Assembly: GCA_946411525.1 (NCBI GenBank)
Contig: CAMKEI010000008.1
Coordinates: forward strand, 1 to 55,410
DNA: 55,410 nucleotides
Direction: 5' to 3'
DNA from: an uncultured Clostridia bacterium
GTDB lineage: Bacteria; Bacillota; Clostridia; Christensenellales; Aristaeellaceae
Shown here piece after piece: positions 1,529 through 21,444 of this stretch. The notes under the pieces are model-generated. The model saw only the letters and a program-made list of their open reading frames with translations. It did no database searches and was not told the DNA's origin. The translations under genes and the position numbers were made by a program. The first letter of the stretch is position 1, and every line of letters begins with the position of its first letter.

Positions 1529-2545
1529 TTACTGCTCCTTCTTGGTGGCGTAAGCAGCGACCAGCGCCAATGCCAGCACCGCGCCTTTGACAGCGGGAAG
1601 TACATAGAAGGGAACGGCACAGATGGTCAGACCGTTTTCCAGCGTGGAGACAAGCAATGCCCCGATCATTGTACCCAGGGCGTTTGGCTTTTCCGCACCG
1701 CCGACTGTACGACCGACGAACACCGCTGCCAGGGACTGCATCAGGTAGTTATCGCAGCACATTACCTGTGCGGAACTACCGCGGGAGGAGACAAGAATAC
1801 CGCCAATGGCGATGAACACCGCCGTGATCATACCGGCCAGGTAGCGGTAGCCCTTGACGTTGATACCGGAGAGTTTCGCGGCCTGTTTGTTGCCGCCCAT
1901 GGCGTAGATGAAGCGGCCGTGCTTGGTATGCTCCAGGAAGATGTATGCCACCAGCACGCAGGCAAGCATGATGATGATCAGCCAGGGCTCCTTGCCGATG
2001 GCCAGGAAGTCTTCCCCCAGCTTGATCCGGAGGGGATCCGCGCCGGCGGGGGTGCGCATGCCGGTGGAAACGGCGCCGCCGCCGATGTACCACTGGCCCA
2101 GGCCCTGATGAACGAACATGAGGGCGCAGGTGGCCAGCATGTCCGGAATCTTGCAGACCAGGATCAGGAACATGGTCAGCTGGTACATGATGATCGTGAC
2201 CAGAATGGAGATCAGGATACAGGCGCCCAGCGGCAGCCCGTACCAGAGGTACATACTGACAAACACATATGCGGAGCAGCTGGCCAGCGTACAGGCGGAC
2301 ATGTCAAAACCGTCCGGCGCCATGGTGACCGTGGCGGCAATACCGAACACGGTGGTGATGGACATAGCCCGGAGAATATTGATCATGTTGTTCGTGGACA
2401 TGAACCGGTTGCCCTTGATCAGGGTAAAGGCAATCACACTGGCGACCAGCGTGATGACGGCTGCCCAGTCGATCAGGACTTTACCGAGGCTTTTTTTCTG
2501 CCTCGGCATCGCAGCCATGTTTGGTTTCAGGGTTGTTTGCGTCAT
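1529..2545 (-). CDS. Ribose-type sugar ABC transporter permease (RbsC family)
   Basis: This 338-residue, strongly hydrophobic protein has about 8-10 membrane segments and is of usual length for the RbsC/BPD_transp_2 family. Family-like segments include DGFDMSACTLAS near residue 75 and AAVFVGRTVGGAEKP near residue 265. The start at 2545 is chosen because GGAGGG lies a few bases upstream; the frame stays open upstream of it. It is the last gene of a minus-strand operon (binding protein, ATPase, permease), 16 bp after the ATPase gene. There is only one permease gene, so it would homodimerise. It diverges from the BMC operon and is the obvious importer for its sugar. The substrate (ribose-like, perhaps 5-deoxy or 5-methylthio) is inferred from context. 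Confidence 0.88.
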   Translation of the reverse strand: MTQTTLKPNMAAMPRQKKSLGKVLIDWAAVITLVASVIAFTLIKGNRFMSTNNMINILRAMSITTVFGIAATVTMAPDGFDMSACTLASCSAYVFVSMYLWYGLPLGACILISILVTIIMYQLTMFLILVCKIPDMLATCALMFVHQGLGQWYIGGGAVSTGMRTPAGADPLRIKLGEDFLAIGKEPWLIIIMLACVLVAYIFLEHTKHGRFIYAMGGNKQAAKLSGINVKGYRYLAGMITAVFIAIGGILVSSRGSSAQVMCCDNYLMQSLAAVFVGRTVGGAEKPNALGTMIGALLVSTLENGLTICAVPFYVLPAVKGAVLALALVAAYATKKEQ

Positions 2546-2561
2546 GTTCGTCCCTCCTGTT

Positions 2562-4079
2562 TCACGCGTAGCGGGCACGGTTGCCCACGGCGTAGTGCAT
2601 GATCTCGTCTTCCGAAGTCTGCGATGTGACAAGCTCCGCCATCACCTGGCCGTCAAAGAGAACGTAGATCCGGTCGGTGATGGAAAGCAGCTCGGAGTTT
2701 TCGCAGGAAGCGTATATGACGCTGTTCCCGCGCTTCGCGATATCACAGATCAGGTGGAAGATATCCTGCTTTGCTCCGACGTCAACGCCCTTGGTGGGCT
2801 CATCGAAAATATACAGGTCGCAGTCGGCGGCCATCCATTTGGCAACGGCCACTTTCTGCTGGTTGCCGCCGGACAGGTTTTTGACAAACTGCTTTACGGA
2901 AGGCGTGGAGATGCCGAGCTTCTTCACATAGTCCTCCGCGCACTGGTCGATTTTCCGCTTGTTGATGAAGGAAGCGGTGCAGAAGTTGTCCAGGGAAGCG
3001 GCTGAGATATTGAAACTGACTGTTTCGCCGACAAGAACGCCTTCCTTGCGGCGCTCCTCCGGCACCAGGGCGATCCGGTTCTTCAGAGCCTGGGACGGGT
3101 TTTTCACCGTCAGCTCCCTGCCGCCCATGATGACCTTGCCGCCGGTCTTTTCATAGGCGCCGAAGATGGTTTTGCACAGCTCCGACTTACCGGCGCCGAC
3201 CAGGCCCGCGATGCCGACGATTTCGCCCTTGCGTGCGTAGATGGACACGTCGTTGACGCGTCCGTCCGCGCCGGAGAGGTTCTGCACCTCGAAGGCGACG
3301 TCGCCGATCTCGGCGATCTCCTTGGGGAAGTTCTCCTCGAAGGAGCGGCCCAGCATCTTTTCCACGATCTCCCGGGTGGTGGTCTGCGGTGTGATCTCCG
3401 TCGTTCCGACAACCTGCCCGTTCCGCATGACGGTGTAACGCTCGCAGATCCGGATGATCTCGTTGATCCGGTGGGAGATAAAGATGATGGCGACGTTCTC
3501 GGTCGCCTGCAGATGCTTCACCAGGCGAAAGAGCTCTTCGGTCTCAGTGTCGGACAGGGGAGCGGTCGGCTCGTCCAGGATCAGGAAATTGCACTCGTTG
3601 ACGATGGCCCGGGCAATCAGGACCATCTGTTTCTGGGCCAGGGAAAGATCCTGGACCAGCTTATGAACGTCAACCTCGATGTTCAGCCGCTGAAGCACTT
3701 CCGCGGCACGCTTATAGAGGCTGCGCCATTTCATCATGAAATTTCCGTGCATGACGGTATCGTTCAGCATTACGTTTTCCGCCACGGACAGAGTGGGAAC
3801 CAGCGCCATATCAACTTCCTGATACACGATCTGGATTCCCAGCTTTTTCGCGGCGAGGGTGGAACGAAGCTCCACAACCTCGTCGTTCAGGTAAACCTCC
3901 CCGGTATAATCCGGATTGGCACCGGCCAGCACCTTCATCAGGGTGGACTTTCCGGCGCCGTTTGCCCCGACCAGGGCATGGATCTCACCGGTGGTGACTT
4001 CGAAATTGACATCGGTCAGCGCTTTGACACCCGGAAACTCGATGGAGACATTCCGGGTTCCGAGCTTGATCTTTTCCAT
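2562..4079 (-). CDS. Sugar ABC transporter ATP-binding protein (RbsA/MglA type, two ATPase domains)
   Basis: This 505-residue tandem ATPase has the usual length for RbsA-type proteins. The N-terminal domain carries Walker A GANGAGKST (about residue 38) and Walker B FLILDEPTAPL. The C-terminal domain has a Walker-A-like GLVGAGKSELC (about residue 295), the ABC signature LSGGNQQKV and FDEPTKGVDVGAK. The first domain's signature (LSLAQKQM) is degenerate, as is common in this subfamily. It energises sugar import with the permease at 1529 and the binding protein at 4220. A stem-loop separates it from the binding-protein gene and may set the expression ratio. Confidence 0.93.
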   Translation of the reverse strand: MEKIKLGTRNVSIEFPGVKALTDVNFEVTTGEIHALVGANGAGKSTLMKVLAGANPDYTGEVYLNDEVVELRSTLAAKKLGIQIVYQEVDMALVPTLSVAENVMLNDTVMHGNFMMKWRSLYKRAAEVLQRLNIEVDVHKLVQDLSLAQKQMVLIARAIVNECNFLILDEPTAPLSDTETEELFRLVKHLQATENVAIIFISHRINEIIRICERYTVMRNGQVVGTTEITPQTTTREIVEKMLGRSFEENFPKEIAEIGDVAFEVQNLSGADGRVNDVSIYARKGEIVGIAGLVGAGKSELCKTIFGAYEKTGGKVIMGGRELTVKNPSQALKNRIALVPEERRKEGVLVGETVSFNISAASLDNFCTASFINKRKIDQCAEDYVKKLGISTPSVKQFVKNLSGGNQQKVAVAKWMAADCDLYIFDEPTKGVDVGAKQDIFHLICDIAKRGNSVIYASCENSELLSITDRIYVLFDGQVMAELVTSQTSEDEIMHYAVGNRARYA

Positions 4080-4147
4080 GGATTTCCCTCTTCTCTGCGC
4101 TCCGGAGAACCGGAGCGGAATCAGCGGTTGGCCAAGCCTGAAGAAAA

Positions 4148-4178
4148 GGAGGGCCGGAGCAAGGACTCCGACCCTCCT
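4148..4178 (-). terminator. Intercistronic stem-loop between binding-protein and ATPase genes
   Basis: An inverted repeat of 13 nt (AGGAGGGTCGGAG on the minus strand, one G-T wobble) with a short loop lies between the binding-protein stop and the ATPase start. It has no strong T-tract, so it is more likely a partial terminator or 3'-end stabiliser that keeps the upstream message abundant. Confidence 0.5.
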
Positions 4179-4219
4179 GGCAAGAGATTGCTCTCTGAAT
4201 GATAAGTACCGGTCAGGAA

Positions 4220-5326
4220 TTACTTGTGGATCAGATCGGCGGGCATCCAGTCGGCCACGCTCAGGTAGCCCAGGTTGCCGTAGGTCTCGCCGGCGATCTC
4301 GCCCAGGTTCTCCACGGTGGAGGTGTCCTTCAGAGATGTCGCCATGATGGCGGTACCGGGAACTTCAACCACGTCCACGCCGTACTGCTGGCTGGCGGGA
4401 TCATAGATCTTGTCATATTCGCCGGCCATTTCCAGAAGCAGGAGGCGCATGGCGATCTCGCCGTTCATGGTCCAGTCGGTGGTGCCGGCAGCCATCCAGA
4501 TTTCCGGATGATTCTGCATGTTGGTCACGTCGACCTGGTCGATGTCAACGGAAGCCATCGGCAGCGCGTTGTCGCCGCTGAAGTTGGGATCCTCGGTGAT
4601 GGCGTTGTACACGCCCTGGCCGTACAGATCGTAGTATACGACGACGCCGTCCACATCCTCACGGTTGATGGACTGCAGATAGGCAGCCATCACGGAGTTG
4701 GCGGAATCAAGGGTATCCTGCAGGGGCTGCACTTCGCCGACGGTCTTGATCTTGCCGGCGGATTCATACTCCTGCCAGCCGACTTCACGGCGATCGAAGG
4801 GGCTGTTGTAGTTCGGGCCGCGCCAGACCTTGATCAGGCGGACCCCTTCGCCGAACTTCTCGATCATGGCGTCGAGCAGAACGGTGACCAGGGACTTGTC
4901 CTGCTGGAACAGCTGGGTGACGCCGGGCAGCTTCTGGTATTCACCATCGGTATAGAACTGGGTGTCGAAGCAGACGATCTTCATGTCCGGATACTGCTCG
5001 GTGATGCCCTTCAGGAAGGTGTAGGAGCCGTCCTGGTTGCCGTGGCTGACGAGCAGGCCGTCATAGCCGGCAGCGGCACAGGTGGAGATGGTATCCTGCC
5101 ATTTGTTGAAGTCGCCGCCGCAGAAGTGCACGTCGCACTGTACGCCCAGCGCGGCACACAGATCCGTGCAGGAATTCGCCCACATCTGGAAGATGGTGGC
5201 AGAGGGCAGCAGCATGATGTATGCGACCTTCTTGCCGGCGACGGGGTTTTCGGCCTCGGCAGTCGCGACTGACATCATGGACAGAGCCAGTGCGAGAACC
5301 AGGACCAACGCGATAATCTTTTTCAT
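4220..5326 (-). CDS. Sugar ABC transporter substrate-binding protein (periplasmic-binding-protein family)
   Basis: This 368-residue protein has a clear signal peptide (MKKIIALVLVLALALSMM, then A-E-A near residue 25). There is no lipobox cysteine, so no obvious lipid anchor is visible. The mature part follows the RbsB/peripla_BP_4 pattern: GKKVAYIMLL near the start, AAAGYDGLLVS around residue 88 and DVDGVVVYYD around residue 225. It is the first gene of the transporter operon, behind a good minus-strand promoter. The ligand cannot be read from the sequence. The adjacent MtnK/MtnA operon suggests a ribose analogue. Confidence 0.88.
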   Translation of the reverse strand: MKKIIALVLVLALALSMMSVATAEAENPVAGKKVAYIMLLPSATIFQMWANSCTDLCAALGVQCDVHFCGGDFNKWQDTISTCAAAGYDGLLVSHGNQDGSYTFLKGITEQYPDMKIVCFDTQFYTDGEYQKLPGVTQLFQQDKSLVTVLLDAMIEKFGEGVRLIKVWRGPNYNSPFDRREVGWQEYESAGKIKTVGEVQPLQDTLDSANSVMAAYLQSINREDVDGVVVYYDLYGQGVYNAITEDPNFSGDNALPMASVDIDQVDVTNMQNHPEIWMAAGTTDWTMNGEIAMRLLLLEMAGEYDKIYDPASQQYGVDVVEVPGTAIMATSLKDTSTVENLGEIAGETYGNLGYLSVADWMPADLIHK

Positions 5327-5382: not shown

Positions 5383-5411
5383 AGTATAACGCATGTCAAG
5401 TTCTATGTCAA
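5383..5411 (-). promoter_or_regulatory. Sigma-A promoter for the sugar ABC transporter operon
   Basis: On the minus strand, TTGACA (complement of 5406-5411) is separated by 17 nt from TATACT (complement of 5383-5388). It reads toward the binding-protein gene starting at 5326. Confidence 0.7.
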
Positions 5412-5536: not shown

Positions 5537-5547
5537 GTTTACTAAAC
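5537..5547. promoter_or_regulatory. Possible operator palindrome GTTTACTAAAC
   Basis: An 11-bp perfect palindrome lies in the divergent promoter region, 28 bp upstream of the -35 box of the BMC operon, in an AT-rich stretch with related half-sites near 5467 and 5595. It could be the site of the LacI-family regulator encoded at 17117. This is a weak inference from position only. Confidence 0.25.
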
Positions 5548-5574: not shown

Positions 5575-5603
5575 TTGACAGTTCAGTTCGTTTTGTTTAC
5601 AAT
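5575..5603 (+). promoter_or_regulatory. Sigma-A promoter of the BMC operon
   Basis: TTGACA (5575-5580), a 17-bp spacer and TACAAT (5598-5603) form a near-consensus promoter about 60 bp before the aldolase start. It diverges from the transporter promoter, so a regulator bound between them could control both. Confidence 0.75.
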
Positions 5604-5670
5604 GCAAATGAATAACTATGCTCCAAAGCGGAATACTGTCCTTTTTACAGGATATGAAAGAGGGATGCAG

Positions 5671-6558
5671 ATGAGCGAACTGAAGCGGTTTCCGACGGAT
5701 GCCGAGGCCAAAAAACTGATTGTGGAGATCGGACGGCGCATGTATATGAAGAATTTTGTGGCGGCCAACGACGGGAATATCTCCTGCAAGGTGGACGAGG
5801 ATACGATCTGGACCACGCCCACCGGCGTCTCCAAAGGCTTCATGTCCGAGGACGAAATGGTCAAGATGCGGCTGGACGGAACCGTCATCAGCCAGGGGGA
5901 CAAAAGGCCGTCCAGCGAGGCGAAGATGCACCTGCGCATATATAATGAAAGAAAGGACGTCATGGCGGTCTGCCACGCGCATCCGCCGATTTCCACTTCT
6001 TTCGCGATCGCAGGCATGAGCCTGGACAGGGCCATCTATCCGGAGGCGCTGGTCAACCTGGGCACGGTTCCCTGCGTTCATTATGAGGCGCCGGGTTCCC
6101 AGGGAATACCGGATTCCATCGCGCCGTACGTCCGGGATTACAACGCGCTGCTGCTGGCCAACCACGGCGCGGTGGCCTGGGGCTCCTCACTGATGGAGGC
6201 CTGGTACCGGCTGGAGGCGACCGAGCATTACGCGATGGTGATCATGTACACCGGCAACATCATCGGCAAGGCCAACGTGCTGAGCTGCGACCAGGTGGGC
6301 GAGCTGATCCGCCTGCGGGAGAAGATGGGCATCACCACCGGCGGCGTACCGGCCTGCGCGGCAAAGCCCACCAACACGCAGGACGTGGTGCTGGGACAGA
6401 GCGTCAGCGCCGGGGAAACGCCCGGACTCAAGACCTACGGGCAGGGCGGAAGCGCCTCTCCGTGCGGCTGCGCCGGCGGATCCGACTCCGTGAGCGAGGC
6501 GGAACTGAAACAGATCACCGAGGCCGTGATCGCCAGGCTGAGCGGAAAAAGGCAGTAA
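5671..6558 (+). CDS. Class II aldolase (fuculose-phosphate aldolase family) with C-terminal encapsulation helix
   Basis: This Zn-dependent aldolase of the FucA/RhaD family would cleave a ketose-1-phosphate to DHAP plus an aldehyde. The expected metal and catalytic residues are visible: SSEAKMHLR with the catalytic Glu, HAHPP with two His near residue 98, and ANHGAVAWG with the third His. The start at 5671 is set by AGAGGG six bases upstream. The family is usually about 215 residues. This protein has 295, the excess being a Gly/Ser/Cys-rich linker followed by a terminal amphipathic helix (SEAELKQITEAVIARLSG). That arrangement is typical of BMC cargo-targeting peptides. With MtnK and MtnA downstream, the likely substrate is 5-deoxyribulose-1-P or 5-methylthioribulose-1-P rather than fuculose-1-P, because no FucI or FucK is present. 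Confidence 0.9.
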   Translation: MSELKRFPTDAEAKKLIVEIGRRMYMKNFVAANDGNISCKVDEDTIWTTPTGVSKGFMSEDEMVKMRLDGTVISQGDKRPSSEAKMHLRIYNERKDVMAVCHAHPPISTSFAIAGMSLDRAIYPEALVNLGTVPCVHYEAPGSQGIPDSIAPYVRDYNALLLANHGAVAWGSSLMEAWYRLEATEHYAMVIMYTGNIIGKANVLSCDQVGELIRLREKMGITTGGVPACAAKPTNTQDVVLGQSVSAGETPGLKTYGQGGSASPCGCAGGSDSVSEAELKQITEAVIARLSGKRQ

Positions 6559-6656
6559 ACCACCATTTACAGGATTATCAATTATGAATTCAAGATATGA
6601 AGATTCTTCAGCAGTATTTGACCTGAACCGTGGACTGAATTGAAGGAGAGCGTTCC

Positions 6657-7988
6657 GTGAAAGCGATTGTTATCGGCGGAGTGGCGGCGGGCATGTCGGC
6701 CGCGTCCAAGCTGCGCAGAATGATGCCTGACGCCGGAATCACCGTCTATGAAAAGGGCGGCTTCCTGTCCTACGGCGCCTGCGGGCTGCCGTACTATGTG
6801 GGCGACTTCAATACGGAGCCGGGGAAGCTGATCGCCCGGACGCAGGAGCAGTACCGGGAGATGAAGATCGACTGCCGGCTGCACCATGAGGTGCTCCGGG
6901 TAGATCCGGCGGCGAAGAAGGTGCTGGTCAGGGACCTGACAGGCGGGCGGGAGTTTGAGGACTCCTACGACAGGCTGATGATCGCTGTGGGCTGCAACAG
7001 CGTGATTCCGAGGTTTCCGGGGGCGGACCTTCCCGCGGTGTTCTGCCTGCGGAGCATGGAGGACGGCCTGCTGCTGCGGGAGATCGCGCATCTGGACGGT
7101 GTCCGGCATGTGGCGGTGATCGGCGGCGGCTATATCGGCGTGGAAATGGCCGAGGCGCTGGTGCATCTCGGAAAGCAGGTCACGCTGATCGAGGCGGGCG
7201 ACCGGATCATGAATACGTTTGAGCCGGAATTCTCGGAGCTGGCCGCCCAGGAGCTGGAGCGGAACGGCGTGCGGGTCATGATCCGGAGCGCGGTGACGGG
7301 AATTGAGGAAAAGGGAAACTCCCGCACGGTGAAGACCGGGGCGGGCGACGTTTCCTGCGATATCGTGCTGATGGCGGTAGGCGTCAGGCCGGCGACAGGC
7401 TTCCTGAAGGATACGGGAATCCGCATGGCGCGCAACGGCGCGCTGATCGTGGACAGGGAAATGCGGACCTCCCTGGAGGACGTGTGGGCGGCCGGCGACT
7501 GCGCGACGGTGTACCACCGGCTGATGGAGGAGGACGCGTTCATCGCCCTGGGAACGGTCGCGAACAAATGCGGCCGGATTGCGGGCGAGAACATGGCGGG
7601 AAAGCATACAAAGTTTGCAGGCGCCCTGGGCACCGCGGCGATCAAGGTGTTTGAAATGGAATTCGGCCGGACAGGCATGACGGAACGCGACGCGCAGCGC
7701 CTGGGATGCGACTACAAGACCAAGCTGGTGACGGCGCCGGATCATCCGGCCTATTATCCGGATCCGGAGAAGCTGGTCATCAAGCTGATTTACGAGGCCC
7801 GGACGAGGAAACTGCTAGGCGCGAACGTCTGCGGAAAGCGGAACGCGGTGATGCGGACGGATATGTTCGCCGTCGCGATCCACAACGGAATGACCACGGA
7901 GCAACTGGGCATGGTGGACCTGGCCTACGCGCCGCCCTTCGCCTCCGTGTGGGACGCGGTGCACATTGCGGCGAACGCGGCGAAATGA
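6657..7988 (+). CDS. CoA-disulfide reductase / NADH oxidase-like flavoprotein
   Basis: This 443-residue FAD/NAD(P)-dependent disulfide-oxidoreductase family protein starts at GTG (6657) behind AAGGAG. It shows the FAD dinucleotide fold VIGGVAAGMSAA, the redox-active cysteine in SYGACGLPYYVG (about residue 42, as in CoA-disulfide reductases and NADH oxidases), the NAD-binding GGGYIGVEMAE (about residue 160) and VWAAGDCA (about residue 280). The C-terminus ends as in the family, with no targeting extension. In this operon it could keep CoA reduced or reoxidise NADH. The choice between CoA-disulfide, polysulfide and O2 as oxidant cannot be made from sequence. It is an unusual partner for a BMC. 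Confidence 0.85.
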   Translation: MKAIVIGGVAAGMSAASKLRRMMPDAGITVYEKGGFLSYGACGLPYYVGDFNTEPGKLIARTQEQYREMKIDCRLHHEVLRVDPAAKKVLVRDLTGGREFEDSYDRLMIAVGCNSVIPRFPGADLPAVFCLRSMEDGLLLREIAHLDGVRHVAVIGGGYIGVEMAEALVHLGKQVTLIEAGDRIMNTFEPEFSELAAQELERNGVRVMIRSAVTGIEEKGNSRTVKTGAGDVSCDIVLMAVGVRPATGFLKDTGIRMARNGALIVDREMRTSLEDVWAAGDCATVYHRLMEEDAFIALGTVANKCGRIAGENMAGKHTKFAGALGTAAIKVFEMEFGRTGMTERDAQRLGCDYKTKLVTAPDHPAYYPDPEKLVIKLIYEARTRKLLGANVCGKRNAVMRTDMFAVAIHNGMTTEQLGMVDLAYAPPFASVWDAVHIAANAAK

Positions 7989-8011
7989 CGGAAAGGAAGG
8001 CGGGAATCGCG

Positions 8012-8812
8012 ATGGACAAGCTGTGCTCAATCCGGGAGGCCATCGGTTCTGTTCCGGACGGCGCGATGATCGCGCTGGGCGGAAACACGCTGAACCGCGC
8101 ACCGATGGAAGCGGTCCTTGAGATCGTACGGCAGGGAAAGAAACACCTGCGGCTGATCAAGACGGCCGGCGGGCTGGACGTCGACCTGCTGAGCCTGGGG
8201 GAATGCCTGGACAGCGTGGACGCCGGGTTCATCAGCATGGAAACGGAATACGGCCTGGCGCAGCATTACCGCCGGGCGGTGCAGTCCGGCAGCGTCAGGG
8301 CGAACGAGCACGCGTGCTATACGGTGATCTCCGCCCTGCGGGCAGGCGCTTACGGGATTCCGTTCATGCCGGTGCGCGGGCTGCAGATATCCGACCTGCG
8401 CAAAGTCAACGACTACTTCGCGGACGTGAAGGATCCCTTCGGAGGGGAAACGCTGGCGGCGGTCAAAGCGCTGCGGCCGGACGTCGCCGTGATCCACGTC
8501 CAGCAGGCGGACGCCCGCGGGAACGCGGTGATTGACGGACCGAAGTACGACGACATCCTGATGAGCCGGGCGGCGAAGCGGGTGATCCTGACGGCGGAGA
8601 CGATCGTCGGGGATGGTTTTTTCAGCCGGAACGAGGTCAAGGCGGATATTCCGCATTTCATGGTTTCCCATGTGGTGAGGGCGCGCCTGGGCGCCTTCCC
8701 GGGCAGCTGCTTCGGCGCCTACGGCCCGGACGACCGGACGATCCGGAAATACGCGGAACTGGAGAACGCCGACGGCCTGCGGGCGATGATCGGAGAGGGG
8801 GGAGGCGTATGA
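8012..8812 (+). CDS. CoA-transferase-like subunit A (GctA/IpdA type)
   Basis: This 266-residue protein of the two-subunit CoA-transferase superfamily has DGAMIALGG near residue 15, TEYGLAQHYRRAV, RAGAYGIPFMPVRGL (about residue 110) and HVQQADARGN, all typical of glutaconate-CoA-transferase alpha-like chains. The ATG at 8012 has AAGG about 11 bp upstream. An alternative ATG at 7985 overlaps the previous stop and would add nine residues. Its stop overlaps the start of subunit B by 4 bp, so the two are translationally coupled. It may be a transferase moving CoA between acids, or a CoA-thioester hydrolase or lyase like the related steroid-ring enzymes. The substrate is unknown. Confidence 0.82.
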   Translation: MDKLCSIREAIGSVPDGAMIALGGNTLNRAPMEAVLEIVRQGKKHLRLIKTAGGLDVDLLSLGECLDSVDAGFISMETEYGLAQHYRRAVQSGSVRANEHACYTVISALRAGAYGIPFMPVRGLQISDLRKVNDYFADVKDPFGGETLAAVKALRPDVAVIHVQQADARGNAVIDGPKYDDILMSRAAKRVILTAETIVGDGFFSRNEVKADIPHFMVSHVVRARLGAFPGSCFGAYGPDDRTIRKYAELENADGLRAMIGEGGGV

Positions 8813-14682: not shown

Positions 14683-14958
14683 ATGGAACTTCAGGCTTTG
14701 GGAATGGTGGAAACAAAGGGACTCGTCGGCTCGATCGAGGCGGCGGACGCCATGGTGAAGGCGGCCAACGTTCACCTGGTCGGCAAGGAGCATGTGGGCG
14801 GCGGCCTGGTGACCGTGATGGTCCGGGGCGACGTCGGCGCCGTGAAGGCGGCGGTGGAAGCGGGCGGCGCGGCAGCCAAGCGGGTCGGCGAGCTGGTCAG
14901 CGTGCATGTGATTCCGCGTCCCCATGAAGAGGTTGAGGGAATCCTGCCCCAGATGTGA
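14683..14958 (+). CDS. BMC-H shell hexamer protein 2 (PduA/EutM-like)
   Basis: A 91-residue paralogue of the preceding shell protein, about 90% identical over the shared domain and with the same HVGGG pore loop. It lacks the basic tail. The pair looks like a recent tandem duplication, since nucleotide identity is also high. It is preceded by AAAGGAG. Confidence 0.96.
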
Positions 14959-15007
14959 CCGGGCAGTATTCTGGACAACGCGAAGGACCTGATGAGGAGG
15001 AACGGAA

Positions 15008-15433
15008 ATGCTGAAAGGAATATCCCCGCTCCTTACACCGGAGCTGCTCAAAATTCTGGCGGAAATGGGCCACGGCGATGAGCTGGTGATCGGCGACTGC
15101 AATTTTCCCGCGCAGTCCATGGGAAAGCGCTGCGTCCGCTGCGACGGCAAGGGCGGTGCTGAACTGCTGGACGCGATCCTGCAGCTGCTCCCGCTGGACC
15201 AGTATGTGCCGGCGCCTGTCACCGTGATGGATCCCGAAGGCGGGCTGGACTACGATCCCCCGATCTGGGCGGAGCTGGACAGGATCTGCCAGAAACACCA
15301 GCCCGGCGTCAAATTTGAGAAAATCGGCCGGTTCGCATTCTACGACCGGGCGAAGAACGCCTACGCCACCATCGCGACGGGCGAAAACGCGCTGTATGCC
15401 TGCTTCATTATCAAGAAGGGATGCCTGACCTGA
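15008..15433 (+). CDS. RbsD/FucU family sugar mutarotase
   Basis: A 141-residue protein starting MLKGISPLLTPELLKILAEM followed by GHGDELVIGDCNFPA, the hallmark N-terminus of FucU-like mutarotases, where the His and Asp of GHGDE are functional. These proteins speed anomer and pyranose-furanose exchange of ribose or fucose. In this operon the role would be to present the right anomer of the incoming pentose to the kinase. It has GAGGAGG upstream and lies 13 bp before dhaK. Confidence 0.88.
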   Translation: MLKGISPLLTPELLKILAEMGHGDELVIGDCNFPAQSMGKRCVRCDGKGGAELLDAILQLLPLDQYVPAPVTVMDPEGGLDYDPPIWAELDRICQKHQPGVKFEKIGRFAFYDRAKNAYATIATGENALYACFIIKKGCLT

Positions 15434-15445
15434 GGAGGAGCAACC

Positions 15446-16462
15446 ATGAAGAAAATCATCAATACGCCGGAACGCTTTATTCCCGAAATGCTGGAAGGCA
15501 TCTATGCCGCGCATCCGGATGACCTCACCTTCGCGGAAGGAGACCTGCACTGCCTGGTTACGAAACAAAAGCAGGCGGGAAAGGTCGGCATCGCCACCGG
15601 CGGCGGCTCGGGCCACCTGCCCCTGTTCCTGGGCTATGTGGGAAAGGGCATGCTGGACGGCTGTTCGATCGGCGACGTATTCCAGTCGCCGAGCGCGGAG
15701 CAGATGCTGGCCGTGACGAAGGAGATCGACCAGGGAGCGGGCGTGCTGTACATTTACGGCAACTATAACGGGGATATCTTCAACTTCGATATGGCCGCGG
15801 AAATGGCGGACATGGAGGAGGATATCCGGGTGGAGAGCGTCGTCGCGGGCGAGGATGTGGCTTCCGCCGGACCGACGGCGGAAGGAGAACCGAATAAACG
15901 CAGGGGTGTGGCGGGCATCTTCTTCGTGTACAAGTGCGCCGGCGCCGCGGCAGCCGCGGGCAAAAGCCTGGACGAGGTGAAGGCTGTCGCGGAGAAGACC
16001 TGCGCGAACGTCAGGACCATGGGCGTGGCGCTGACCTCCTGCACGGTGCCGAGGGTCGGCCATCCCAGCTTCGAAATCGGGGATGACGAAATGGAGATCG
16101 GCATGGGCATCCACGGGGAGCCCGGTATCCGCCGGGGCAAGCTTGTACCCGCGGACGAGATCGTGGACGAGATGATGGAGCCCATCCTGAAGGATATCCC
16201 TTACCGTGCGGGCGACGAGGTGGCCGTGCTGATCAACGGATTGGGCGCCACGCCGCTGGAGGAGCAGTATGTGATGTTCCGCCGGGTCAAGCAGATCCTG
16301 GACGAAAAAGGGATCAGCGTCTGGCATACCTATGTGGGTGAATACGCCACTTCCATGGAGATGGCCGGCGCATCCGTTTCGCTGCTGCGCCTGGACGACG
16401 AGCTGAAGGGCTGGCTTGCGGCGCCTGCCGACACACCGTTCTTCAAACAGTTTCAGCTGTAA
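15446..16462 (+). CDS. DhaK-like dihydroxyacetone (or ketotriose/tetrose) kinase subunit
   Basis: This 338-residue DAK1-domain protein of usual DhaK length has ATGGGSGHLPLFLGYVGKG near residue 50. The usual GHEP is GHLP here, as in DhaK-like paralogues. GMGIHGEPGIRR carries the His that binds the substrate carbonyl covalently (about residue 215). It is paired with the DhaL-like gene 9 bp downstream. A DhaM phosphoryl donor subunit is absent from the window, so either ATP or a distant PTS protein would supply phosphate. It may recycle DHA or act on another short ketose. The exact substrate is unknown. Confidence 0.85.
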   Translation: MKKIINTPERFIPEMLEGIYAAHPDDLTFAEGDLHCLVTKQKQAGKVGIATGGGSGHLPLFLGYVGKGMLDGCSIGDVFQSPSAEQMLAVTKEIDQGAGVLYIYGNYNGDIFNFDMAAEMADMEEDIRVESVVAGEDVASAGPTAEGEPNKRRGVAGIFFVYKCAGAAAAAGKSLDEVKAVAEKTCANVRTMGVALTSCTVPRVGHPSFEIGDDEMEIGMGIHGEPGIRRGKLVPADEIVDEMMEPILKDIPYRAGDEVAVLINGLGATPLEEQYVMFRRVKQILDEKGISVWHTYVGEYATSMEMAGASVSLLRLDDELKGWLAAPADTPFFKQFQL

Positions 16463-16471
16463 GGAGGCCGT

Positions 16472-17062
16472 ATGAACGCGGATAAACTGAGAGGGCTGCT
16501 TTCCGCCTGGGCGGCGCTGATGACGGAAAAGCGGGACTGGCTGATCGAGCTGGACAGCGTGGTGGGCGACAGCGACCTGGGGCTCACCATGAGCGACGGA
16601 TTTACCGCCGCCTCCGAAGCGGCGGCCGCCAGCGACCTGACGGACGTGGGCAAACTGTCCTACCAGGCCGGCAAGGCGATGGCGACAGCGGTTCCCTCCA
16701 CCATGGGAACGCTGATGGCCAGCGGCCTGATGAATGCCGGCAAGGTCCTGAAGGGCATGGAAGACGCGGCGGACACGGACTTTTTCCAGGCGTACCTGGA
16801 AGGGGTGCAGAACCGGGGAAAGGCGCAGATCGGTGAGAAAACCTTCCTGGACGGGCTTCAGCCTGCCGTGGAAGCGCTGAAGCAGGGAAAGACACCGCAG
16901 GAAACCGTGGAGATTGCCTGGGACGCGTTCCAGCATACAAAGGGCATGATTGCGAAGCACGGGAGAATGGCGATCAGGGGCGAAGCTTCCAGGGACCTGC
17001 TGGATCCAGGCGCTGCGGTGGCAGCCCTGATGATGCAGGGATATGCCGGAATACCGGCCTGA
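16472..17062 (+). CDS. DhaL-like nucleotide-binding kinase subunit
   Basis: This 196-residue DAK2-domain protein contains the Mg-ADP-binding Asp cluster in LDSVVGDSDLGLTM (about residue 33) and the conserved VPSTMGTLMASGL (about residue 78). It pairs with the DhaK-like protein. The Asp motif is conserved, so nucleotide binding is likely intact. The domain is of usual length. Confidence 0.85.
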   Translation: MNADKLRGLLSAWAALMTEKRDWLIELDSVVGDSDLGLTMSDGFTAASEAAAASDLTDVGKLSYQAGKAMATAVPSTMGTLMASGLMNAGKVLKGMEDAADTDFFQAYLEGVQNRGKAQIGEKTFLDGLQPAVEALKQGKTPQETVEIAWDAFQHTKGMIAKHGRMAIRGEASRDLLDPGAAVAALMMQGYAGIPA

Positions 17063-17116
17063 CGAGGAATAAGCGCCGGATCTGCCCCGCGGCAGGCCGG
17101 CCGGGGAGTGACAGGA

Positions 17117-18130
17117 ATGACCATTCGGGAAATTGCTGCACAGGCGGGGGTTTCCCCGGCTGCGGTATCCCTTGTGATTAACAATAAAAAAGGGGTCAGT
17201 GAAGAGACCCGGAAGCGGATTCTCGCCGTGATGGAAGAGAGCGGGTATTCCCCAGCCGTCCGGAAAAAAGGCGAGAAGCCGCTGAAGATCGTCGTGCTGA
17301 AATACAGGGTCCACGGCATCGCATTTGAGGAAAACCAGGGATTTATCGCATCCATTGTGGACCGGATCGAAAGTGAGTGCCGGCATCACGGATACGACCT
17401 GATGATGTACAGCTGCGAGCCGGCGACCGCCGCGGCAACCATCCGCGACATGATGAACACACCGCCGGACGGCGTGATCCTGATCGCGACGGAGCTGCCG
17501 GAAGAAGATATCCCGCTGCTGGACATGATTGACGTGCCGCTGGTGGCGCTGGACCAGAACCTGTATCATCCCAATGCCGACTGCGTTGTGATGGACAATG
17601 TGAACCTGATGGCCAGCCTGGTGAAATACCTGGTGGACCACGGGCACCGGGAGATCGGCTATTTCAAGTTTTCCCAAGCGGTGCGGAACTGCGACGAGCG
17701 GTACCAGGGATATCTGGCCGCGCTGGAACGGCTTGGCCTGGAGGCGCCGGAACCGGTTATCTTGAAGCCGACGGTGGACGGCGCGTTTGAGGACCTGGCA
17801 GCAATGATACGCAGCGGGGCTTATATTCCCCATGGCGCGGTGGTGTGCGACAATGACACGATCGCCATCGGCGCGATCAAGGCTATCCGGGAAGCGGGCT
17901 ACTCCATTCCGGAGGATATCTCCATCATCGGCTTTGACGATATCCCGTTCAGCGCGACCACGATGCCCGCCCTGACCACGATGCGGATCTCCAGGTCTGC
18001 GATGGGGGAAATGGCGGTCAATATCCTCCGCAGGCGCATGAAGCATCCGGACTATCCGTGCATGAAGCTGCTGCTGGGCGGAAAGCTGATCATCCGGAAC
18101 TCGACCCGGATACCGGAGGGAAAGCCATGA
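17117..18130 (+). CDS. LacI-family transcriptional regulator of the BMC locus
   Basis: This 337-residue regulator starts with the helix-turn-helix MTIREIAAQAGVSPAAVSLV, then the hinge and a periplasmic-binding-type effector domain (DGVILIATELP, VALDQN, IIGFDDIPFS). The ATG at 17117 has GGGGAG nine bases upstream; a GTG at 17108 is too close to it. Being inside the operon suggests autoregulation. The effector is presumably the imported sugar or its phosphate. The stop overlaps the first BMC-P start by 4 bp. Confidence 0.93.
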   Translation: MTIREIAAQAGVSPAAVSLVINNKKGVSEETRKRILAVMEESGYSPAVRKKGEKPLKIVVLKYRVHGIAFEENQGFIASIVDRIESECRHHGYDLMMYSCEPATAAATIRDMMNTPPDGVILIATELPEEDIPLLDMIDVPLVALDQNLYHPNADCVVMDNVNLMASLVKYLVDHGHREIGYFKFSQAVRNCDERYQGYLAALERLGLEAPEPVILKPTVDGAFEDLAAMIRSGAYIPHGAVVCDNDTIAIGAIKAIREAGYSIPEDISIIGFDDIPFSATTMPALTTMRISRSAMGEMAVNILRRRMKHPDYPCMKLLLGGKLIIRNSTRIPEGKP

Positions 18131-18450
18131 TTGTGGGACGCGTGACAGGAAATGTGGTCAGCTCCAACAAGGTTGAGAAGCTGCGGAACACCAAGATGCT
18201 GATCGTGCAGATTGTCGATATCGCCACGATGGAAATGAAGGACGACTATCTGATTATGATCGACGACGTTGGCGCGGGGGTCGGGGACCTCGTATTCGGC
18301 GCCTACGGCAGCTCATCCCGCCAGTCCGACACTTCGAAGCAGTACGCGTCGGACTATACGATCTACGGAATCATCGATTCCATCGACCAGTACGGAAAGC
18401 GTACTTACGACAAGGCAGAGGAGGAAGACGCGTGCAGCTGGCAAAAGTGA
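18127..18450 (+). CDS. BMC-P shell vertex protein 1 (EutN/CcmL family)
   Basis: A 107-residue pentamer protein. MIVGRVTGNVVSSNKVEKL is the typical start, DDVGAGVGDLVFGAYGSSSR the conserved core and IYGIIDSID the final strand. It overlaps the LacI stop by 4 bp, and its own 3' end overlaps the next gene by 19 bp, so the string of vertex genes is tightly coupled. It closes shell vertices. Confidence 0.93.
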   Translation: MIVGRVTGNVVSSNKVEKLRNTKMLIVQIVDIATMEMKDDYLIMIDDVGAGVGDLVFGAYGSSSRQSDTSKQYASDYTIYGIIDSIDQYGKRTYDKAEEEDACSWQK

Positions 18451-18731
18451 TCGGGAGCGTGATCTCCACCCGGAAATGCGACCGGCTTGAGGGTATGAAG
18501 CTCCTGGTCGCGGTTCCGATCGATATGGACACGTTCAAAGAGAAGGGATCCCCCTTTGTCACGGTGGATACGGTCGGCGCCGGGGAAGGGGAGATCGTGA
18601 TGTGGTGCGGCGGCTCCAGCTCCCGCGCGACGGAAATGACGACGAACAAGCCGGTGGACGCGACGATCATCGGCATTGTGGACAACGTGGACATTCTGGG
18701 CAAGCGGGTGTTCACCAAAGGAGAAGCATGA
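18432..18731 (+). CDS. BMC-P shell vertex protein 2 (EutN/CcmL family)
   Basis: A 99-residue EutN/CcmL protein starting at GTG within the end of the previous gene. VIGSVISTRKCDRLEGMKLL, DTVGAGEGEIVMWCGGSSSR and IIGIVDNVDI are family segments. The GSSSR pore-side loop is kept. Confidence 0.92.
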   Translation: MQLAKVIGSVISTRKCDRLEGMKLLVAVPIDMDTFKEKGSPFVTVDTVGAGEGEIVMWCGGSSSRATEMTTNKPVDATIIGIVDNVDILGKRVFTKGEA

Positions 18732-19018
18732 AACTGTCGAAAGTGACGGGTACGGTGGTATCCACGATCAAATACGGCCGTTATGAAGGACATAAGCTGC
18801 TGAAGGTGCGCCATCTGAGCCTGGACGGCAGGACCGTCGGGGAGGAACTGGTAGCGATCGACATGGCCGACTCGGGGATCGGGGATATTGTGCTGACAAA
18901 CAATGACGGCGGCGCGGCGAAAATGATCACGGGGGACAGGGAGATCATCGCCGGCCTGACCATCTGCGGGGTCGTGGATTCCTATACCTGGCAGGGCCGT
19001 ACGGTTCAGTGCCACTGA
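18728..19018 (+). CDS. BMC-P shell vertex protein 3 (EutN/CcmL family, divergent)
   Basis: A 96-residue EutN/CcmL protein in an ATGA overlap with the previous gene. VTGTVVSTIKYGRYEGHKLL and GLTICGVVDSYTW match the family, but the central glycine-rich segment is altered (ADSGIGDIVLTNNDGGAAKM), so its pore loop differs from vertex proteins 1 and 2. Confidence 0.88.
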   Translation: MKLSKVTGTVVSTIKYGRYEGHKLLKVRHLSLDGRTVGEELVAIDMADSGIGDIVLTNNDGGAAKMITGDREIIAGLTICGVVDSYTWQGRTVQCH

Positions 19019-19031
19019 AGGAGGCGGAAGA

Positions 19032-19307
19032 ATGAATATCGGCCGGGTGGAGGGCAGCGTCGTCTGTTCCGTGAAAACGCCCACGCTGACCGGCGTGAAG
19101 CTGCTGGTTGTTCGCCTGCTGGCAAACGGCGAACCAAAAGGCCTGGTGATCGCGTCTGACGGGACGCACCAGGCAGGAATCGGCGATACGGTTTATCTGA
19201 TCGGCAGAATGGAAGCGGCCATGATGACCGATCTGCAGAAACTGCCCCCCTGCGACCTGTGCATCGCCGGCATCATCGATCCGGAAACACTGGTGCAGGA
19301 GGGCTGA
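19032..19307 (+). CDS. BMC-P shell vertex protein 4 (EutN/CcmL family, divergent)
   Basis: A 91-residue fourth EutN/CcmL homologue. RVEGSVVCSVKTPTLTGVKL and DLCIAGIIDPETL are the family start and end. The core loop (HQAGIGDTVYLIGRMEAAMM) lacks the GSSSR motif. GGAGGCGG precedes the start. It is the last gene of the operon, 12 bp from the stop of the convergent PfkB kinase. Confidence 0.85.
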   Translation: MNIGRVEGSVVCSVKTPTLTGVKLLVVRLLANGEPKGLVIASDGTHQAGIGDTVYLIGRMEAAMMTDLQKLPPCDLCIAGIIDPETLVQEG

Positions 19308-19319
19308 GAAGAGACGGGG

Positions 19320-20201
19320 TTATTCCGCCAGGCTGACTTCCTCCGCGGTGGGAATGGAATCTGCGGCGCCCTTGCGGCTGACTGCGATGGAGGACGCGAA
19401 GGCGGCGCGGCGGAGCGCATCGGGAATTGGCATGCCGCTGCTGATGCCGGCAAGGAAAAAACCGGTGAAGGTATCGCCCGCGGCAGTGGTGTCCACGGCC
19501 TGCACTTCAAAGGCAGGCTGGAAGAACCGGTGTCCGCGGTCCATGGCCCAGGCGCCGTTCGCGCCCAGCGTCAGCACGACGCTGCCGTTGGGGAATTTCT
19601 TCGCCAGGACATCCAGAATCCTTCCGGGATCGGTTTCTCCGGTCAGGGCCTCGCCTTCGATCTCGTTGAGCAGGAACCAGCTGACGGTTTCCAGCGGATA
19701 GGAGAGCATCTCCCGGCTGACGGGGGAGGGATTGAAGATAATGGCCAGTCCCTTTTCCGCAGCCTTGCGCATCATCAGGGGGGTGTTGAACAGCTCATTC
19801 TGCATGAGCACGGCGTCCCCCGGGGCAAAGTCCGCGAGCACGCGGTCGATATCCGCTTCCGACGGGCGCATATTTTCCCCGCTGAAGACGATGATGCAGT
19901 TCTGCCCTTTACGGTCCACCTGGATGACGGTGTGGGCACTGGCGCCCGGCGCCCGGCGGATGTGGGTGATATCCACCTTCGCGGCGCGCAGCGCATCCAG
20001 AAGGATATCCCCGTCCTCACCGACCACGCCCGCGTGGAAGATTTCCGCACCGGCTTTGGCCAAGGCGATGGACTGGTTCAGCCCCTTCCCGCCGCAGAAC
20101 AGGTTCTGGTCCGCGGCCAGGAGGGTTTCTCCGGGCTGGACGATATGGTCCACCTGATAGACATGATCAAGATTGATTGAGCCGTAATTAACGATTTTCA
20201 T
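19320..20201 (-). CDS. PfkB-family sugar kinase (ribokinase-like)
   Basis: A 293-residue ribokinase-type protein with GGKGLNQSIALAKAGA (about residue 37) and the catalytic DTTAAGDTFTGFFLAG (about residue 233), where the Asp of AAGD is the base. The start at 20201 has AGGAAAG upstream. It runs opposite to the BMC operon with its own promoter. Its substrate could be ribose or another pentose delivered by the neighbouring transporter. The similarity is to ribokinases rather than to the KDG kinase at 28757. Confidence 0.87.
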   Translation of the reverse strand: MKIVNYGSINLDHVYQVDHIVQPGETLLAADQNLFCGGKGLNQSIALAKAGAEIFHAGVVGEDGDILLDALRAAKVDITHIRRAPGASAHTVIQVDRKGQNCIIVFSGENMRPSEADIDRVLADFAPGDAVLMQNELFNTPLMMRKAAEKGLAIIFNPSPVSREMLSYPLETVSWFLLNEIEGEALTGETDPGRILDVLAKKFPNGSVVLTLGANGAWAMDRGHRFFQPAFEVQAVDTTAAGDTFTGFFLAGISSGMPIPDALRRAAFASSIAVSRKGAADSIPTAEEVSLAE

Positions 20202-20231
20202 GGAGCTTTCCTCCGCTGTTTTTCTGCCTGT

Positions 20232-20260
20232 ATCGTACCAGAAAAACGGCTGAAAGTCAA
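20232..20260 (-). promoter_or_regulatory. Promoter of the PfkB kinase gene
   Basis: On the minus strand, TTGACT (complement of 20255-20260), a 17-nt spacer and TACGAT (complement of 20232-20237) stand about 30 bp before the kinase start. Confidence 0.55.
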
Positions 20261-20292
20261 TGAAAGCAAGGCGTACGGAAGGAGATAAGCAG

Positions 20293-21444
20293 ATGCTGTC
20301 CCGGATCAACTCAGTGAAAACCAGCTTCTTCGGAAAAGGCGCCGTGTCCCTGCTGATACCGGAGCTGAAGAAGATGGGTATCCGCCGCGTGCTGATCGTG
20401 ACGGATCCGTTTCTGTACAAATCCGGTGCGGCGGAATATGTGGGAAAGGCCCTGGCGGAGGCAGGCGCCGCCTACGCGGTGTATCACCATGTTCAGCCGA
20501 ACCCGACGGTGGAGATTGTCAATGACTGCATCACCGCGGTGAAAACGCTGCAGATCGACCTGCTGGTAGCCGTGGGCGGCGGAAGCGCGATTGATACCGC
20601 GAAGGCGGCCAGCATCGTGGCGGCCAACGGCGGACGCGTGGAGGACTATGAGGGCGTCGGCAAGTCGTCGAAGCCCGGTATTCCAATCGTCGCGGTGAAC
20701 ACGACTGCCGGTACAGGCAGCGAATGCACGTCCTTCTATATCGTGACCGATCCGGTCCGCCACAGCAAGATGGCCATGGTGGATCCGAACTGCATGGTCA
20801 CAATCGCCGTGAACGACATTGAGCTGATGATGTCCATGCCCCCGAAGCTGACGGCTTCCACGGGGCTGGACGCGCTGACGCACGCCATTGAGGCGCTGCT
20901 GGCCAGAGGTGCCAATCCGATGACGGACCGTGACGCGCTGTGGGCGATGGAAACTGTCTGGCGGTATCTTCCCCGGGCGGTGCGGGACGGCCGGGACGAG
21001 GAAGCGAGAACACAGATGGCTTACGCGGAATACGCAGCGGGTATGGCGTTTTCCAATGCCGGACTGGGCATGGTGCATGCCATGGCGCACGCGCTGGGCG
21101 GCCACAGCAATCTGCCACACGGGGTCTGCAACGCGGTGCTGCTGCCCTATGTGACTGAGTTCAACGCAGAGCACAGCACGGAAGCGAGAGAAAGAATACC
21201 GGAAATCTCGAAGGCGCTGTCGCTGCCGGACGAACGTCCTTATACGCTGGTCCGGGCGCTTCGTACAACCGCGATGGAGCTGGGTATTCCGCGGACACTC
21301 AAAGATATGGGAGGTGTGTCACCGGAGGACTTCGGCTCTCTTGCCGACCTGGCGCTGAAGGACGCCTGTATGGCGGACAACCTGTATACGCCGACGCGTG
21401 AAGAAGTCATCAAAGTCTATGAAAACGCATGGAGCGGGATTTGA
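20293..21444 (+). CDS. Iron-containing alcohol dehydrogenase
   Basis: This 383-residue group III ADH has AVGGGSAIDTAKAAS (NAD-binding, about residue 92) and TTAGTGSECTSF. The Fe-ligand segments are GLDALTHAIEALL, MVHAMAHALGGH and LPHGVCNAVLLP. The start at 20293 follows AAGGAGAT. It would reduce part of the aldehyde to an alcohol and so regenerate NAD+ for the acylating dehydrogenase, as PduQ and FucO do. No targeting helix is evident. A strong terminator follows. Confidence 0.93.
   Translation: MLSRINSVKTSFFGKGAVSLLIPELKKMGIRRVLIVTDPFLYKSGAAEYVGKALAEAGAAYAVYHHVQPNPTVEIVNDCITAVKTLQIDLLVAVGGGSAIDTAKAASIVAANGGRVEDYEGVGKSSKPGIPIVAVNTTAGTGSECTSFYIVTDPVRHSKMAMVDPNCMVTIAVNDIELMMSMPPKLTASTGLDALTHAIEALLARGANPMTDRDALWAMETVWRYLPRAVRDGRDEEARTQMAYAEYAAGMAFSNAGLGMVHAMAHALGGHSNLPHGVCNAVLLPYVTEFNAEHSTEARERIPEISKALSLPDERPYTLVRALRTTAMELGIPRTLKDMGGVSPEDFGSLADLALKDACMADNLYTPTREEVIKVYENAWSGI

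Follow-up and report, generated by a model that had tools for sequence, protein, structure and literature searches.

Introduction

The dihydroxyacetone phosphate (DHAP) shunt is formed by DrdK, DrdI and DrdA in Bacillus thuringiensis and by MtnK, MtnA and Ald2 in Escherichia coli and R. rubrum. According to portions of PMC6079011, DrdKIA converts 5-deoxyribose to DHAP and acetaldehyde, and the equilibrium of the DrdA-type aldol reaction, about 10^-4, favours the ketose phosphate. Parts of PMC10986504 report that E. coli lacking the shunt excretes methylthioribose and 5-deoxyribose, and that E. coli possessing it grows on 5-deoxyribose by respiration, not by fermentation. Here we describe a locus in which the same three enzyme families are clustered inside an operon for a bacterial microcompartment (BMC). 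It lies in a window of 55,410 nt, the whole stretch analyzed (contig CAMKEI010000008.1, assembly GCA_946411525.1), from an uncultured Clostridia bacterium of the Aristaeellaceae, whose relatives come mainly from animal guts. The original prediction for this DNA proposed a microcompartment for 5-deoxyribose or 5-methylthioribose, and our analysis supports it through sequence, not biochemistry: the locus probably specifies a microcompartment that breaks down 5-deoxyribose and/or 5-methylthioribose, with the DHAP shunt feeding it.

Published drd clusters may hold sugar transporters, and one has a fucose-mutarotase homologue (portions of PMC6079011); likewise, our locus has an importer and a FucU-type gene. 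In contrast to the shunt, the operon adds a shell, PduL, an acylating aldehyde dehydrogenase (AldDH) and an alcohol dehydrogenase, and its aldolase forms a distinct clade with a C-terminal tail.

Among microcompartments, catalogues describe PVM-like, SPU, ACI, MIC and MUF types (sections of PMC8217296 and PMC4207490). With the PVM and PVM-like organelles for fucose and rhamnose the locus shares a class II aldolase as signature enzyme, an AldDH and a shell, and pentamer genes outnumber hexamer genes here as they do in PVM (sections of PMC4207490). Unlike PVM, it carries MtnK, MtnA and a different importer in place of the fucose/rhamnose enzymes; the operon itself includes neither RhaD nor the truncated RhaA, which are located beyond it. 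In SPU an aldolase yields acetaldehyde and triose phosphate and AldDH follows, the same logic as we propose here. The defining enzymes of SPU are a DeoC-type aldolase (pfam01791) and RpiB (pfam02502), as given in sections of PMC8217296; neither was found among the operon genes scanned, the rest of the genome not having been searched for them, and SPU was set aside because its aldolase and isomerase families differ. In the ACI type a pfam00596 aldolase bears an encapsulation peptide at its C-terminus, comparable to the aldolase and tail here, but this type is reported only from Acidobacteria, includes a hydroxyacid dehydrogenase and has its AldDH on a satellite locus (same sections of PMC8217296). 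MIC and MUF have no assigned pathway in the sections of PMC4207490 that treat them.

The string "methylthio" is missing from the main texts of catalogues PMC8217296 and PMC4207490, the main text of the gut survey PMC6620236 contains neither "aldolase" nor "dihydroxyacetone", and the word "microcompartment" is absent from PMC6079011, PMC12632272, PMC10986504 and PMC8102628. In the open-licence PubMed Central literature we found no paper joining a microcompartment with methylthioribose, mtnK, 5-deoxyribose or the DHAP shunt. A methylthioribose kinase gene adjoins the pdu cluster of A. woodii and is termed unrelated to BMC function in portions of PMC7593272. The terms microcompartment, methylthioribose and aldolase also occur together in PMC11046441, a review of alpha-glucan enzymes. 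The DHAP shunt and the metabolosome are each known, and we found the two joined in none of the open-licence papers searched. Compared by main-text descriptions, published catalogues may hold loci of this type under the PVM-like or another label.

Results

Shunt-family enzymes are encoded within a microcompartment operon

An importer on the minus strand (1529-5326) diverges from the operon on the plus strand (5665-21444). The operon begins with the signature enzyme, a class II aldolase (5665-6558; Pfam PF00596, Aldolase_II, 166 bits). MtnK (9580-10809; TIGR01767 420 bits, cut-off 275) and the aldose-1-phosphate isomerase MtnA (10831-11925; TIGR00512 413 bits, cut-off 279) are 35% and 40% identical to their counterparts in the E. 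coli S88 DHAP shunt, so that a kinase and an isomerase of the shunt families are clustered with a class II aldolase. The enzyme core of a metabolosome is also present. It comprises a PduL-type phosphotransacylase with N- and C-terminal extensions (11941-12828; PF06130 230 bits; NF011652 238 bits, cut-off 209), a CoA-acylating AldDH (12850-14289; NF011927 637 bits, cut-off 403; closest solved structure 4c3s) and a FucO-like iron alcohol dehydrogenase (20293-21444; iron alcohol dehydrogenase Pfam model 164 bits; TIGR02638 386 bits, cut-off 523), which probably starts at the ATG at 20293. The shell genes are two PF00936 (BMC-H) genes (14350-14646 and 14683-14958; 103.7 and 102.9 bits) and four PF03319 (EutN/CcmL) vertex genes (18127-18450, 18432-18731, 18728-19018 and 19032-19307; 79, 100, 65 and 60 bits), all on the plus strand. 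By self-comparison the two BMC-H genes share 86% DNA identity across 254 nt, and no PF00936 gene beyond these two was found across the 2.45-Mb, 85%-complete assembly.

Every gene named in the original prediction (shell, PduL, AldDH, alcohol dehydrogenase, MtnK, MtnA, aldolase, importer and mutarotase) is present in an open frame, and the MtnK, MtnA, PduL and AldDH calls each exceed curated cut-offs where models fit. The divergent ribose-type ABC importer it described is borne out as permease, ATPase and binding protein. It had not mentioned a flavoprotein, a CoA-transferase-like pair, DhaK, DhaL, a LacI regulator or a ribokinase-like gene.

The cluster recurs in relatives

We sampled 150 genomes of the same family. 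MtnK exceeds its cut-off in 19 of them, and 14 of these also encode BMC-H, 13 on the same contig within a few kb. Gene order is similar across the loci with both, and MtnK, MtnA, PduL, AldDH and shell genes cluster together. The arrangement is beyond chance, given MtnK and BMC-H on one contig in 13 of the 19 genomes and the recurrence of the gene set in named genera of other families. Five MtnK genomes have no BMC-H: G133 has a 4-kb contig on which the cluster runs only as far as PduL, contig ends truncate the loci of G035 and G021, and G136 and G075 are weighed below. Within the genus, an aldolase of this clade (>400 bits) occurs in 7 of 45 genomes, many of them incomplete, which gives the locus the look of an accessory trait.

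We also searched public genomes with an aldolase-only alignment and annotated by tblastn the best 80 of at least 553 confirmed relatives. Full flanks, defined as 10 kb on both sides of the aldolase, were available for 49 of the 80 loci. The loci overlap the family genomes (L043=G595, L046=G583, L050=G068, L051=G027, L052=G014) and are not independent of each other, L065-L068 being near copies. MtnA lies in the flanking DNA of 74 of the 80 loci; among the 49 with full flanks, 48 have it no more than 10 kb from the aldolase, the exception being L064. Shell genes are nearby in 29 of the 80, and 23 of these 29 carry MtnK; of the remaining six, L068, L071 and L089 have less than 2.6 kb of upstream DNA, and L054, L064 and L093 have full flanks. 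The shell loci come from Lacrimispora, Anaerocolumna, Proteocatella, Bacillus, Gracilibacillus, Salipaludibacillus, Calidifontibacillus and Paenibacillus, as well as Clostridium bovifaecis and uncultured Clostridia. Named carriers of the gene set are Lacrimispora xylanisolvens DSM 3808, Anaerocolumna aminovalerica and Proteocatella sphenisci. Furthermore, a metagenome-assembled genome (MAG) of Treponema (L053) encodes MtnK, MtnA, PduL, AldDH and EutN, and in L054, a Synergistaceae MAG, MtnA and EutN are neighbours of the aldolase and the genome also encodes BMC-H.

Other arrangements were seen among the 80 loci. L097 and L122 (in each at about 3.2-13 kb), L113 and L119 lack a shell; their binding protein shares 71-76% identity with that of the window, and MtnK, MtnA, aldolase and FucU accompany it. 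In L049, L098, L101, L103, L110 and most other Lachnospiraceae loci of L098-L121, MtnA accompanies a short-tailed aldolase of the same clade as the window's, usually adjacent, and tblastn matched no MtnK, importer or shell; these pairs are perhaps an intracellular salvage version. Exceptions are L100, L113 and L119, which have MtnK, L106, with MtnA 8 kb away, and L102, which is cut. In L070, L073, L077 and L081-L083 (Bacillaceae, Paenibacillaceae and kin) the cluster has a long-tailed aldolase, but the BMC-H genes are all at other places in the genome, perhaps as satellite loci.

The aldolase tail accompanies the shell

Past the NHG motif the aldolases of the 80 loci have either 53-84 residues (39 loci) or 93-171 residues (41 loci), with none between. 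We set the long-tail threshold at 93 residues once this gap was known. All 29 shell loci are long-tailed (29 of 41 long against 0 of 39 short). Fisher tests give p = 1.6e-12 for all 80 loci and 2e-6 for the 49 with full flanks, both ignoring relatedness. The fairer figure is the number of changes of the tail label on a tree of the aldolase core, 9 against a shuffled mean of 27, on a tree whose bootstrap is not fully settled. Short-tailed Selenomonas aldolases without a shell nest within the window's long-tailed clade, which looks like loss of the tail along with the shell. Genome-wide, we checked for BMC-H in 11 of the 16 long-tail loci without it in their flank and in 14 chosen from the 39 short-tail loci. 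It was present in 9 of the 11, apparently just beyond the flank in L045 and L052, and in 3 of the 14 short-tail genomes; it was not found in the other 11.

An AlphaFold2 model of the window's aldolase is confident for the core, up to about residue 240, and weak in a linker spanning 241-277, after which residues 278-294 form a helix (blocks of pLDDT 94 and 75), so that the modelled tail would resemble an encapsulation peptide. Across the 80 loci the hydrophobic moment reaches p <= 0.05 in 20 of the 41 long tails and in 0 of the 39 short ends. Likewise, AldDH bears an N-terminal helix like an encapsulation peptide, amphipathic in 13 of 13 family loci, with p = 0.002 for the hydrophobic moment of the window's. 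Sequence and model thus suggest that the cargo carries encapsulation peptides at the AldDH N-terminus and in the aldolase tail. Among 11 alcohol dehydrogenases compared by eye, those of L023 and L025 have a targeting-like N-terminal helix.

The aldolase fold is closest to DrdA

Asn38, Thr53, Ser83-Ser84-Glu85, His104, His106 and His167 are invariant in 43 aligned aldolases and align with FucA and DrdA, where these residues have metal and phosphate roles. The solved fold closest to the aldolase model is 6btg, the 5-deoxyribulose-1-phosphate aldolase DrdA with DHAP (E 1.5e-17, 30% identity). YgbL and FucA rank close behind, so the fold alone leaves the substrate unfixed. On the tree, the aldolase belongs to a clade apart from Ald2 and DrdA, with very long branches.

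A separate methionine salvage route, which would have spoken against the original prediction, is not evident, as the 85%-complete genome has no MtnB above cut-off, the best match being the aldolase itself (88.7 bits against 137). Methionine salvage with MtnB was set aside on this ground. The genome encodes one MtnK and an MTA/SAH nucleosidase barely over its cut-off (75.6 against 73.8).

The binding protein is distantly related to a methylthioribose transporter protein

The importer comprises a permease (BPD_transp_2; 1529-2632, minus strand; PF02653 88 bits) with orthologues in BMC loci of relatives, whose real start is probably downstream of the listed TTG, an ATPase (2562-4079, minus strand; xylose, arabinose and ribose ABC ATPase models up to 482 bits, under equivalog cut-offs) and a substrate-binding protein (4220-5326, minus strand). 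With phmmer, the binding protein has two solved relatives, 5ulb (E 2.1e-16) and 4ry8 (E 1.3e-5). A family profile, which mixes two binding-protein types, gives 2.3e-115 for 5ulb, 6.6e-61 for 4ry8 and 1.1e-19 for the next best, and Foldseek on the model places 5ulb first and 4ry8 at ranks 2-4. The title of 4ry8 names it the binding protein of a 5-methylthioribose transporter; a search for a paper on 4RY8 found none. The match is an independent hint to the pathway, from sequence and model.

Two promoter-like sites face outward from the 5.3-5.7-kb gap: TTGACA-17-TATACT toward the importer (5383-5411, minus strand) and TTGACA-17-TACAAT toward the operon (5575-5603, plus strand), each with 11 of 12 matches in a consensus scan that found 8 sites in the region against 4.7 in shuffles. 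Between them lies the palindrome GTTTACTAAAC (5537-5547, no strand assigned). Among the 26 loci searched, the window included, it also stands upstream of the aldolase in L024, L043 and L045, with a one-base variant, GTTTAGTAAAC, in L034. The palindrome is a possible LacI-type operator.

Accessory genes of the operon

A flavoprotein of the CoA-disulfide reductase/NADH oxidase family (6657-7988, plus strand; NF007123 548 bits, cut-off 458; closest solved structures 6ruz, an NADH oxidase, then 3cgb) follows the aldolase. Next is a CoA-transferase-like pair, subunit A (AibA/GctA-like; 7985-8812, plus strand, starting at 7985 or 8012; PF01144 84 bits; 5mzw E 8e-43) and subunit B (8809-9525, plus strand). 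In alignments to 5mzw and variants, subunit B has Ile at the position of AibB Cys56, and its LNI-GG stretch is kept in 12 aligned sequences. Because of this Ile the pair may not be a CoA transferase.

The FucU/RbsD-type mutarotase (15008-15433, plus strand; PF05025, RbsD_FucU, 145 bits) is 46% identical to E. coli FucU. DhaK, the substrate subunit of dihydroxyacetone kinase (15446-16462, plus strand; PF02733 411 bits; closest solved structure 3ct4, GIHxEPG motif kept), and DhaL, the nucleotide subunit (16472-17062, plus strand; PF02734), are closest to dihydroxyacetone kinases among solved structures; no match to DhaM (TIGR02364) was found in the genome. In L097 and L122, DhaK, DhaL and a PfkB gene lie downstream of a cluster without a shell but with FucU, so DhaK/DhaL and FucU seem tied to the sugar rather than to the shell. 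The LacI-family regulator (17108-18130, plus strand; PF00356, PF13377) precedes the vertex genes, and an accessory ribokinase-like PfkB kinase (19320-20255, minus strand; TIGR02152 218 bits, cut-off 300) follows them. In other genera, an RnfC-like protein matching RnfC models is encoded between AldDH and the shell genes; it resembles PduS.

Flanking DNA of the window

The 3' end of a guaA gene (GMP synthase C-terminal; 50891-51877, minus strand) is repeated twice more, in unchanged orientation, at 123-344 (87% over 222 nt) and 21983-22137 (82-90% over about 155 nt). The gene and these copies enclose the BMC locus (345-21982) and the pectin/uronate segment that follows, the arrangement that tandem insertion of two islands at guaA, a known integration site, would leave. 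Pfam revealed no recombinase among 10 open reading frames at the window's two ends, those at 21.4-22.0 kb not having been scanned, and no guaA match was found in 35 stretches of relatives compared. Directly adjoining the second copy, and absent from the original prediction, are an N-terminally truncated L-rhamnose isomerase (profile 251-417) and then a full rhamnulose-1-phosphate aldolase (TIGR02624 408 bits), at 22074-23437. Pectin/uronate genes follow at 25043-48471: GH28, GH88 sharing an open frame with MatE, pectinesterase, UxaC, an altronate dehydratase family member and a mannitol-type dehydrogenase. Scans of the window with Rfam and for tRNA genes gave no match.

Discussion

Four largely independent lines agree in pointing, by sequence and model, to an organelle built around the DHAP shunt: MtnA near the aldolase, the tail/shell link together with the AldDH helix, the DrdA fold, and the binding-protein match. 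In the pathway they suggest, the importer would take up a 5-deoxypentose (5-deoxyribose and/or 5-methylthioribose), FucU would equilibrate its anomers, MtnK would phosphorylate it to the 1-phosphate and MtnA would isomerize this to the ketose-1-phosphate. The encapsulated aldolase would then release DHAP and acetaldehyde (or methylthioacetaldehyde), AldDH within the shell would convert the aldehyde to acyl-CoA, and PduL would recycle CoA and yield an acyl-phosphate for ATP, acetate kinase being present in the genome. NAD would be recycled by the alcohol dehydrogenase here and by the RnfC/PduS-like protein in relatives of other genera. Immediate removal of the aldehyde would pull the unfavourable aldol cleavage forward, and the sugar would become fermentable. 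In its boldest form, the proposal makes DhaK/DhaL a second entry, phosphorylating free 5-deoxyketose at C1 and bypassing MtnK and MtnA.

Several observations weigh against this proposal. The aldolase is only 27-32% identical to Ald2, DrdA, FucA and YgbL, and by sequence it scores slightly higher against YgbL, of a decarboxylase family, than against DrdA. Glu127 is invariant in its clade and Tyr125 is not; the position of Glu127 holds Glu in MtnB dehydratases and RhaD and Tyr in FucA. Identity to 4ry8 is only 22% for the binding protein of the window and 20-23% for its type (12 sequences); the other type in the profile, from Lacrimispora, Bacillaceae, Paenibacillus and others, is closer, at 25-33% (17 sequences). 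The aldolase's own tail is not unusually amphipathic (hydrophobic moment p = 0.75), and no targeting peptide is visible by eye at the N-terminus of the window's alcohol dehydrogenase. BMC-H was not found in the genomes of the long-tailed loci L096 and L093, the latter with EutN nearby, nor in the family genome G075, which keeps the long tail; G136 has a short tail. G136 and G075 retain an intact importer-MtnK-MtnA-aldolase cluster with the shell missing, so the pathway does not require a shell. Across the phylum, MtnK exceeds its cut-off in 20 of 398 sampled genomes, and BMC-H lies near mtnK in none of the 19 others; a single one of these has BMC-H anywhere, more than 1.5 Mb from mtnK. Most MtnK genes are thus unconnected with shells. 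Finally, no clear role can be given to DhaK/DhaL or to the CoA-transferase-like pair, and the window's locus has no RnfC/PduS-like gene.

The strongest competing explanation, though a clearly less likely one, keeps the organelle and makes methylthioribose its main substrate. AldDH, PduL and the alcohol dehydrogenase would then turn 2-methylthioacetaldehyde into methylthioacetyl-CoA, methylthioacetyl-phosphate and methylthioethanol, with sulfur perhaps recovered elsewhere. The only close binding-protein match titled with a pathway ligand is the 5-methylthioribose transporter protein, MtnK and MtnA are named after this sugar, and a gene of the CoA-disulfide/persulfide-reductase family lies in the operon. 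Against this, MtnK, MtnA and Ald2 of the shunt take both sugars and the E. coli pathway prefers 5-deoxy compounds (portions of PMC10986504), no methylthio-releasing enzyme was recognized among the annotated operon genes, and the aldolase fold is closest to DrdA.

That the shunt is real but the aldolase stays outside, the shell serving AldDH and PduL only, we regard as unlikely. Clusters without a shell (G136, G075), the weakly amphipathic window tail and the two long-tail genomes without BMC-H fit this idea. It sits poorly with the tail modelled as linker and helix, and with shell genes lying in the flank of 0 of 39 short-tail loci and long tails in 29 of 29 shell loci.

Ordinary ribose is an improbable substrate. 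MtnK- and MtnA-like enzymes would form ribulose-1-phosphate, and the aldolase would split it into DHAP and glycolaldehyde, a scheme in keeping with the ribose-type importer and the ribokinase-like and mutarotase genes, and with a score of 81 bits on the ribulose-1-phosphate aldolase model (cut-off 300). However, MtnK and MtnA exceed curated methylthioribose cut-offs, and the binding-protein profile, which leans on the other, closer type, matches 4ry8 at 6.6e-61 against 1e-19 or worse for ribose-binding proteins; on this closer relation to 4ry8 ribose was set aside.

Marginally less credible than ribose is a PVM-like fucose/rhamnose organelle that encapsulates lactaldehyde, with MtnK and MtnA as bystanders. 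Such an organelle would account for the class II aldolase, the FucU-like mutarotase and the FucO-like alcohol dehydrogenase. Just past the operon come RhaD and a truncated RhaA, and a class II aldolase also belongs to the PVM-like loci published for gut Firmicutes (portions of PMC8156839). However, fucose isomerase and kinase families are missing among the operon genes scanned, in line with the absence of FucI and FucK that the original prediction reported, and the downstream RhaD is a separate, different aldolase. A plain PVM fucose/rhamnose type was set aside because the aldolase tracks MtnA: 48 of the 49 full-flank loci have the two no more than 10 kb apart.

Least probable is that the aldolase-like protein is an MtnB-type dehydratase, the cluster being a variant of methionine salvage that merely adjoins a shell operon unrelated to it: the protein scores 89 bits on the MtnB model and has invariant Glu127 in an MtnB-like place, but falls under the cut-off of 137, its tail and the shell occur together, and AldDH, PduL and the shell need an aldehyde source that a dehydratase would not supply.

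In its widest form, which we favour with less assurance than the reading of the locus itself, the proposal is of an unrecognised microcompartment class across Bacillota, with related loci in Spirochaetota and Synergistota MAGs. It would have an encapsulated ketose-1-phosphate aldolase and act on by-product sugars of radical S-adenosylmethionine and polyamine metabolism, letting fermenters live on 5-deoxyribose and methylthioribose. If true, this would be a new substrate class for metabolosomes and a fermentative form of the DHAP shunt. The locus also occurs in culturable relatives, which makes the reading testable. Having AldDH and PduL in the shell with the aldolase could yield extra ATP and contribute to NADH balance, and cross-feeding is implied, as methylthioribose and 5-deoxyribose excreted by E. 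coli would feed its neighbours.

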